Below are positions 14,544-17,500 of a DNA stretch of 64,000 bases, piece by piece. Below the pieces are notes generated by a model that saw nothing but the letters and a program-made list of their open reading frames with translations, did no database searches and was not told the DNA's origin. Source of the stretch: Setophaga petechia. Lineage: Eukaryota > Chordata > Aves > Passeriformes > Parulidae. The translations under genes were made by a program, and so were the position numbers. The DNA lies in NCBI GenBank assembly GCA_024362935.1, contig JANCRA010000017.1, positions 2,356,001-2,420,000 on the forward strand, given 5' to 3'. Within the stretch, counting starts at the first letter, position 1. Every line of letters begins with the position of its first letter.

Positions 14544-17500
14544 CTACATGTTGGCCATGGTGATGGAGTTGAAGTAGCTCAGCAAGTCCTCCATGCTGAA
14601 GTCCAGGGCAATCCCTGCTCCTGCATAGCAGCGTTGGATGAGCTCCTCAAACTCTCGGTACTGCCGGATGAATCCCTGTTCCATGGCCTGCCACACCACC
14701 TGGAAAACAAAAAACCCTGCTCCATGGCCTGCCACACCACCTGGAAAACAAAAAACCCTGCTCCATGGCCTGCCACACCACCTGGAAAACCAAAAACCCT
14801 GCTCCATGGGCTGCCACACCACCTGGAAAACCAAAAACCCTGCTCCATGGCCTGCCACACCACCTGGAAAACCAAAAACCCTGCTCCATGGGCTGCCACA
14901 CCACCTGGAAAACCAAAACCCCTGCTCCATGGCCTGCCACACCACCTGGAAAAGCAGAAACCCTGCTCCATGGCCTGCCACACCACCTGGAAAAGCAGAA
15001 ACCCTGCTCCATGGCCTGCCACACCACCTGGAAAAGCAGAAACCCTGCTCCATGGGCTGCCACACCACCTGGAAAACCAAAAACCCCATTCCATGCCTGC
15101 CACACCACCTGGAAAACCAAAAACCCTGCTCCATGGCCTGCCACACCACCTGGAAAAGCAGAAACCCTGCTCCATGGCCTGCCACACCACCTGGAAAAGC
15201 AGAACCCTGCTCCAGGGGCTGCCACACCACCTGGAAAAGCAGAAACCCTGCTCCATGGGCTGCCACACCACCTGGAAAACCAAAAACCCCATTCCATGCC
15301 TGCCACACCACCTGGAAAACCAAAAACCCTGCTCCATGGGCTGCCACACCACCTGGAAAAGCAGAAACCCTGCTCCATGGGCTGCCACACCACCTGGAAA
15401 AGCAAACCTCAGCCCTTTCCCGTGCAGCCCCCCAGGCAGTGCAGTCCTGAACCCCAACCATCCCAGGGTCACACCCATCCCACTCCAGTTACCGGCAGGA
15501 GATTTTCCTCAGGGGACAGATGTTTGTGGATTGTCCTGTAGAGGCTCTCCAGGGCCCTCTTGACCTCCTTGCCAGGATATTTTTCGATGACTTTCCGCAG
15601 TTCCTGCTTGCTGTAGGCCAGCTGGAAACTGAGCTCCTCTTCCTTCACCCCCTGAGCCAGGCGGGCCTTGACCCCCTCAAAGAAATGCTGGGAAAGGAAG
15701 GGAAGGGAAGGGAAGGGAAGGGAAGGGAAGGGAAGGGAAGGGAAGGGAAGGGAAGGGAAGGGAAGGGAAGGGAAGGGAAGGGAAGGGAAGGGAAGGGAAG
15801 GGAAGGGAAGGGAAGGGAAGGGAAGGGAAGGGAAGGGAAGGGAAGGGAAGGGAAGGGAAGGGAAGGGAAGGGAAGGGAAGGGAAGGGAAGGGAAGGGAAG
15901 GGAAGGGAAGGGAAGGGAAGGGAACATTCCAACATTCCATGAGGAGCCACCCCGAGGTGGATTCCTGCACCAGGGCTGACACCTGAGCGCTGCCCTCAGT
16001 TCTCATGTCTAATTCAGTTGAAATTAAGAATTTAAGAAGGTTTTATGGAGTGTTTGAGATTTTTATCCTCCAGGAAAGCAGAACTTAGGGAATTTCATGG
16101 TTCTCTCCTCTCCCTGCTCAGCAAGCAGCATCCCTAAGGGCTGCAGACCCATGGAGCAATGGGACTGCTGGAAAATCCCTTCAGTTCCTTGGTGCTCCCC
16201 CCATTTTTCTCCCCACAGAGGGTCTGGAGCCAGAGGTGAGGAAGGGGGATCCCAAACCTGCAGAGGTGTAAAGCAAAACCAGAATTTTCTCAGTTCTCCT
16301 GACATCTCTGCCAGAGCTGGACAGGACACTCCATATCTGCTGTAAAACAAGGGAATAATCCCTTCCTTCATCCTCCTGTCTCTTCATACATCCCAAGAAT
16401 CTGTTTGGGTATTCCTGCTGCAACCTGGCTGTGGAGAAATACCCTAAATCCCAAGGATTTTGAGTTCCCAAATGTATGAATTGTTTCCAAGAACCAGGAA
16501 TTGGCCTCTGCATTACTTCCACCTCTTTGCACCTCCTCTTGGTGAAGAGAAACTGGGAGAGCTGGAGAAGGCCATGCCAGGATTTTCAGGTGCTCTCATA
16601 TCCCACTCACTTTGTTGTGAGTAATAAAATGATCTTTTCCCTTGGAAAAGGGAGGATTTGAAGCCATAGCAGAGCTCAGGTAGCACAAGACACAGAACTG
16701 ATTTTCCAACCAAGCCAACAAATGTTTGACAGCAAGGACTGGAAACAAATTGGAAGTAACAGGTCCCATAAATAATTCCAGCTGAGCTCCATCTGCGAGA
16801 CATTTTAGGGAGAGGAAGGAGCGGAGCTGCTGCAGCCTCGGGAAGGAGGGAATGTCTGTTTGAGTTAGCAGAGCCAGAGGCTCTTAGCTCAGTTAACAAA
16901 GCAGCCACTTGGGGAGGCTTGGATGGATCAGCCCAGGCAGCTGTGAAAAAAGAGCTGGGATCTGCCAGATGCAGGCACGCAACCAGAGTGGGGATGGGAG
17001 CAAACTGGGAGAAAACTGGGAGCAAACTGGGAATAAACTGGGAGCAAACTGGGAGCAAACTGAGACCAAACTGGGAACAAGCTGAGAACAAGCTGAGAAC
17101 AAAGTGGGAACAAAGTGGGAGCAAACTGGGAGTAAACTGGGAGCAAACTGGGAGCAAACTGGGAACATACTGGGAACAAACTGGGAGCAAACTGGGAACA
17201 AACTGAAAGCAAACTGGGAACAAACTAGGAGAAAACTGAGTGCAAACTGGGAGCAAACTGGGAGAAAACTGGGAGAAAACTGGGAAAAAACTGGGAGAAA
17301 ACTGGGAACAAACTGGGAACAAACTGGGAACAAACTGGGAGCAAACTGGGAGAAAACTGGGAGTAAACTGGGAGCAAACTGGGAACAAAGTGGGAGCAAA
17401 CTGGCAACAAACTGGGAGAAAACTGGGAGCAAACTAGGAACAAATTGGGAGCAAACTGGGAACAAACTGGGAACAAACTGGGAGCAAACTGGGAGAAAAC

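Follow-up and report, generated by a model that had tools for sequence, protein, structure and literature searches.

How does a gene select its last exon when most of the preceding intron consists of copies of its own acceptor? This question is raised by an EXOC1-like gene on the minus strand of the window (the whole stretch of DNA analysed, 64,000 nucleotides from Setophaga petechia), in which 18 near-identical acceptors are found in a single intron. The rules of 3' splice-site choice (first AG after the branch point, local competition, and exon definition) have mostly been tested in engineered minigenes. An intron whose acceptors differ mainly by their distance to the donor, the branch point, and the exon is a rare natural test of this choice, and allelic copy-number differences, if they exist, would let the rules be tested in living birds.

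Anatomy and origin of the array

The gene was identified by the Pfam domain Sec3_C-term and by songbird orthologues. Its top protein database matches are songbird models annotated as "exocyst complex component 1-like" and "EXOC1", which bears out the original prediction of an EXOC1-like gene. The penultimate coding exon (15493..15687, minus strand; HFFEGVKARL...PEENLLP) matches PF20654 (Sec3_C-term) with an E-value of 2.7e-15 and terminates in CCG followed by gtaact, in splice phase 0. The last exon (14544..14699, minus strand), which begins with VVWQAMEQGFIRQY and ends with SITMANM and a stop codon, was delimited using PF20654 and orthologous gene models; when searched alone, this fragment has an E-value of 1.6e-4 and a score of 21.5 bits, below the family cut-off of 23.7 bits. 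NLLP is joined to VVW in orthologous proteins, supporting the junction of the two exons, and orthologous gene models agree with 14699 as the true start of the last exon, as predicted. The last intron (15492 to 14700, minus strand) is 793 nt long and in phase 0, with a GTAACT donor at 15492 and CAG at 14700. No relative was found in a solved-structure search with the last two exons (best E-value 0.29).

At the other end of the protein, the N-terminal PIP2-binding domain (PF15277) was detected on contigs C1 (two places) and C3 (one place) and not on the window's own contig, C17. Among the best 120 of 1351 homologues, it is absent from 12 of 13 oscine models of at least 600 aa, the exception being a starling protein (P0029), and it is carried by the non-oscine models of at least 700 aa among the matches listed. 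These sequences suggest that the EXOC1-like gene, upstream of 32230, has likely lost PF15277 in songbirds.

Eighteen instances of TTTTCCAG with GTGGTG directly after it were counted on the minus strand, in head-to-tail copies of TTTTCCAG joined to GTGGTGTGGCAG. The first exonic bases of acceptors 1 to 9 are at 15393, 15352, 15311, 15271, 15230, 15190, 15149, 15108, and 15068, and those of acceptors 10 to 18 are at 15027, 14986, 14945, 14904, 14863, 14822, 14781, 14740, and 14699. TRF reports an array at 14674-15406 (period 41, 18.0 copies, 93% matches) which overlaps the boundary between the last intron and the exon starting at 14699, and thus agrees with the motif count and with the 18 copies of a 41 bp splice-acceptor unit originally predicted. 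These comprise 17 array units and the last exon's own copy, with a spacing of 41 bp in 14 of 17 cases and 40 bp in three. On the basis of TRF, motif positions, and comparison with the exon, the 17 units (14 of 41 bp and three of 40 bp) extend over 14700..15393 (minus strand), making up 694 of the 793 nt of the intron. Each unit opens with 26 nt copied from the beginning of the last exon and closes with approximately 15 nt of intron end, in which TTTCTGC or TTTTTGG precedes TTTTCCAG. A 20-nt core, TTTTCCAG plus GTGGTGTGGCAG (14688..14707 on the minus strand in the exon-proximal copy), is identical in 18 of 18 copies. The remaining 99 nt of the intron (15394..15492, minus strand), from the GTAACT donor to acceptor 1, are unique.

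Of the 26 bases that open the last exon, 25 are the same in the consensus unit, with exon base 21 the first to differ, and many units end in GCTTTTCCAG, the sequence found at the intron end of the unique flank. The 20-mer TTTTCCAGGTGGTGTGGCAG has 18 exact matches among those listed in the 1.22-Gb genome, all of them inside the array, with one further place at one mismatch and 20 at two mismatches among the matches listed; the same 20-mer read backwards, used as a control, has none. Because 25 of 26 bases match and the exact 20-mers all lie in the array, a chance likeness to the exon is ruled out, and the array is confirmed as a tandem duplication across the intron-exon junction. It follows that every unit has an acceptor (pyrimidine tract and CAG) and then genuine exon-start sequence.

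The flank and the exon both have AGG near the putative break points (intron ...CTGAGG, exon ...GCAGG), so the simplest start would be a microhomology-type duplication of approximately 40 bp over the 3' splice junction of the last intron, with break points probably at the common AGG. The unique 99 nt would then be the remnant of an originally short intron of about 99 nt, which is a plausible size, and slippage or unequal exchange would have added the 17 extra copies. Units 3 and 8 have the same sequence, units 4 and 9 do likewise, and units 2 and 7 are one base apart, therefore groups of units were copied together.

Purifying selection on the splice core was also considered, and was rejected as an established cause of the invariant 20-nt run, for which P is 0.006 if the ten variable columns are treated singly and 0.14 if they are treated as six clusters. 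Among nine arrays of the window hand-picked from the TRF list, this is the sole array whose best 20-mer is present in every copy (0.12-0.89 per copy in the other eight), and the invariance is suggestive only as a sign of such selection. The predicted RNA structure of the last units has a z-score of -1.9, with nine of 200 shuffles equally stable.

Predicted competence of the acceptors and gene models in other songbirds

By score, all 18 resemble genuine acceptors of the gene. On a PWM built from the gene's 12 other acceptors, the array acceptors score 7.4 to 11.5 bits, and the 12 acceptors themselves score 0.3 to 9.6 bits in leave-one-out scoring. We regard it as probable, judging from sequence, that a junction duplication has left the spliceosome confronted with 18 near-equal acceptors, that functional protein would come from the exon-proximal acceptor or another in-frame acceptor, and that upstream acceptors would be used at a minor but real rate, giving isoforms that have gained residues encoded by the array or had their C-terminus replaced. 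We claim no selected role for the array.

It is possible, though not probable, that the array is instead an inert minisatellite derived from the junction, with 14699 as the sole acceptor used and upstream acceptors appearing only in artefactual gene models. The two highest PWM scores do belong to the exon-proximal acceptors, 17 and 18, on a small matrix of only 12 sites, but none of the other sixteen falls below the range set by the gene's real acceptors.

Gene models of other birds bear on both readings. We assembled 127 homologues, consisting of the best 120 of 1351 matches and additions from two further searches, many of them partial models. The last-exon scan and the array peptide-word search took in all 127; the C-terminal 130 residues were inspected in 120, and three more were inspected in full. 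Array peptide words were found in only two of the 127 retrieved homologues, zebra finch isoform X1 (P0010, XP_041572139.1) and New Caledonian crow isoform X2 (P0114). In the finch isoform, an insert of 41 residues separates NLLP from VVWQAMEQGFIRQY; three 41-bp units can encode it, and 38 of its 41 residues are identical to those obtained when three units of the window are translated from 15027. In the crow isoform, NLLP is followed by VVWQAMEQGSAFPGG and the protein ends HPAVPRV, a tail that can be encoded by one 40-bp unit and then the exon out of frame; the same alternative end appears in the window's array reading. These protein models, which are not DNA, imply at least three extra units in the finch and at least one in the crow. 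The original prediction had allowed that the array of other birds might be unlike the exon boundary, but in these two gene models the peptides match it.

The remaining 125 of the 127 retrieved homologues lack array words, and most join NLLP straight to the exon, as an inert array would predict. At least five of the models without array words are odd near the boundary (P0008, a canary protein with GS inserted, P0009, P0022, P0123, and P0126). With the finch insert as query (45 residues), the zebra finch protein itself was found and no other, and a search with the window's 255-residue reading, which scored only the 7994 candidates sharing most words, listed 42 proteins, none with array words. 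Tandem repeats are documented as a cause of spurious introns, for example at the PER3 VNTR (EASTR, PMC10632439), and the finch and crow models may rest on misaligned reads, which would make both isoforms artefacts of alignment or annotation. Against this, the out-of-frame C-terminus of the crow model would be an unlikely choice for a homology-driven model, and we continue to favour occasional use of upstream acceptors.

The finch and crow peptides both fit units spelled with TCTGC, a spelling present in seven of the 17 window units; the unique flank is spelled GTTTGC, without TCTGC. This fit only favours a common origin, because codon degeneracy permits other spellings. Zebra finch and crow represent the two great branches of songbirds, therefore the songbird ancestor is likely to have had an array. 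The array itself is probably old within this group, with upstream acceptors used in annotation; the alternative is a repeated origin in separate songbird lineages. A more ambitious reading, that a copy-number-variable ladder of acceptors has been inherited across songbirds, with allele length setting the acceptor and the exocyst-like C-terminus, and the core kept because broken acceptors were selected against, is in our view unlikely.

The array may also have exchanged sequence with the exon. Residue 9 of the last exon (14673-14675) is G in 16 of the 127 proteins, E in 103, Q in three, and L in one, with four unmatched, and all 16 proteins with G are from songbirds, as classified from their names. 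Array units encode G at the equivalent position; G at residue 9 fits array-to-exon gene conversion and, equally, a simple substitution, the two not being distinguishable. Gene conversion rewriting the exon start was rejected, as the first nine residues are not significantly more divergent in oscines (P = 0.10; 41 oscine rows, 8 suboscine or New Zealand wren rows, and 75 others, with P0008, P0022, and P0114 dropped beforehand and with the swallow row P0123 misaligned, its model extending past the usual end).

Candidate branch point and predicted products

Taking TNA as the branch-point core, a motif scan found none anywhere in the array. The nearest such motif to the acceptors is CTGAG (15408..15412, minus strand, with its A at 15409), which lies in the unique flank 15 nt ahead of acceptor 1; three other TNA places are found further up in that flank (GTAAC at the donor, GTGAC, and TTCAG). 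The unit thus holds a pyrimidine tract, CAG, and the exon start, and does not include a branch motif. The 3' splice site is reported to be the first AG downstream of the branch point, although AGs closer than approximately 12-15 nt may be bypassed (PMC1431707). As the array is without a TNA core, this scanning rule does not readily point to the exon-proximal acceptor; it would favour acceptors 1 and 2 if CTGAG is the branch point.

Strict scanning from CTGAG would make acceptor 1 or 2 dominant, with the conserved C-terminus mostly swapped for a repeat tail. From acceptor 1 (15393, minus strand), the closest to CTGAG, this would be a 248-residue repeat-derived tail ending HPAVPRV. We consider this outcome quite unlikely. 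Residues 10-48 of the last exon are largely conserved in oscines (mean diversity 0.17 versus 0.12 in non-passerines), an argument for continued translation of the proper frame, for which 14699 or one of six in-frame copies is needed. A non-TNA adenosine in the unit could also act as the branch point, vertebrate branch points being degenerate. The conflict between scanning logic and exon conservation is what makes the locus of interest.

It is highly improbable that splicing is nested or recursive, joining an upstream AG/GT junction first and removing the remaining array as a second intron. Each of the 18 copies does read CAG/GTGGTG, an acceptor and then a donor-like GT, but GTGGTG fits the donor consensus GTRAGT only at +1 to +3 and is a poor match at +4 to +6. 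Nested splicing could leave no trace in mRNA, and for this reason it can gain no support from gene models. A new intron has been described from a duplicated intron-exon boundary in potato (PMC4974935).

Translation from each acceptor shows which would preserve the protein. The conserved C-terminus is kept from seven of the 18 acceptors, with 0, 41, 82, 123, 150, 177, or 204 extra residues. The six upstream in-frame acceptors on the minus strand are 15311 (+204 residues, the 5'-most), 15230 (+177), 15149 (+150), 15068 (+123), 14945 (+82), and 14822 (+41), all as originally predicted. The predicted ends from the other 11 are HPAVPRV (five) and SAWRTC (six). mRNAs with a stop codon in the last exon are not expected to undergo decay; the predicted stop codons from all 18 acceptors fall within the last exon, therefore the products are expected to escape nonsense-mediated decay.

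The exon frame had been predicted to be open to about 15461, and it is indeed open, although its true limit is further, at 15488. The three minus-strand frames lack stops through the array, also as predicted. This openness had been taken as a pointer to coding use, an interpretation that we discard: it fits composition on both strands, as all three plus-strand frames are likewise open through the array, and a consensus unit without a sense stop results from 71% of dinucleotide shuffles and 12% of mononucleotide shuffles, so the absence of stops carries little weight. There is no sign of selection for a coded repeat, and it is scarcely credible that the array is kept for a variable C-terminal insert: seven of 18 acceptors keep the frame and every sense frame is open, but the 41-bp unit (40 bp in three of 17) is not divisible by three and frame-keeping is not in excess (six of 17 upstream acceptors against 5.7 by chance).

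Related systems and other tandem repeats

The original prediction held that exon-derived acceptor minisatellites are not a described class. That is too broad, as both boundary duplication (PMC4974935) and boundary repeats that alter splicing (PMC2812944) have been published. The array is a real, junction-derived extension of the boundary-repeat kind to 18 acceptors. An 18-fold acceptor array was not found in a literature search that covered mostly listings and few subscription papers, which is weak evidence of absence.

The closest parallel is the potato RdRp gene, where a new intron, backed by RNA reads, arose through tandem duplication of a segment spanning an intron-exon boundary (PMC4974935); according to a review, tandem genomic duplication is the only proposed mechanism of intron gain to have been shown in vivo (PMC3443670). 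The founding duplications are alike in joining an intron 3' end to an exon 5' end, with the pyrimidine tract, acceptor AG, and exon start. The potato gene is described as having one duplication, one RNA-supported new intron, and an inherited putative branch site (PMC4974935), whereas the songbird array has 17 extra copies of a short segment, in a unit without a branch motif. In human segmental-duplication genes, internal tandem repeats at exon-intron boundaries also change splicing, with alternative splicing reported (PMC2812944, which cites Zhuo 2007 PNAS); those repeats gave novel introns in young primate-specific genes, whereas the songbird unit comes from the acceptor of an existing intron. 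NAGNAG and other tandem acceptors similarly compete at one intron end (PMC3250501, PMC2423196), but NAGNAG sites are two sites three bases apart, compared to 18 sites over 694 bases here.

The TERT VNTR6-1 is likewise an intronic minisatellite with a similar unit (38 bp) tied to alternative splicing, but it is said to act via an expandable intronic G-quadruplex and the abstract describes no acceptor in its unit (PMC11830802). A two-tetrad G-quadruplex-like motif is present in the songbird unit as a candidate only: CAGGTGGTGTGGCAGG spans the junction in 11 copies (14687-14702 and others), and 15 start positions within the array fit the general G-quadruplex-like pattern.

The array suggests a way in which a conserved gene could withstand the expansion of a minisatellite across its own splice junction, and that such an array may be an intermediate stage toward a change of the intron-exon boundary.

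Tandem repeats lie close to other acceptors of the gene. A (GGGAA)47 microsatellite (15690-15924) abuts the acceptor of the penultimate exon (15687), where the polypyrimidine tract is therefore the TTCCC repeat. A CACAGCTAAA-type array (27701-28153) stops 17 nt before the acceptor at 27683, which has the lowest PWM score among the gene's 12 other acceptors. A general excess of tandem repeats at the gene's acceptors was rejected: three of 13 hand-picked acceptors (this array included, a fourteenth candidate at 18639 left out) are preceded by an array at a distance of 25 nt or less (P = 0.53), and array edges abut two of the 13 (P = 0.017, uncorrected). The first identified coding exon contains a 21-bp repeat (32090-32143; GTFQEGL) whose residue number varies among orthologous proteins. 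The window region is generally rich in tandem repeats, with large minisatellites at 44633-46223 (42 bp x 37) and 33241-34095 (21 bp x 41).
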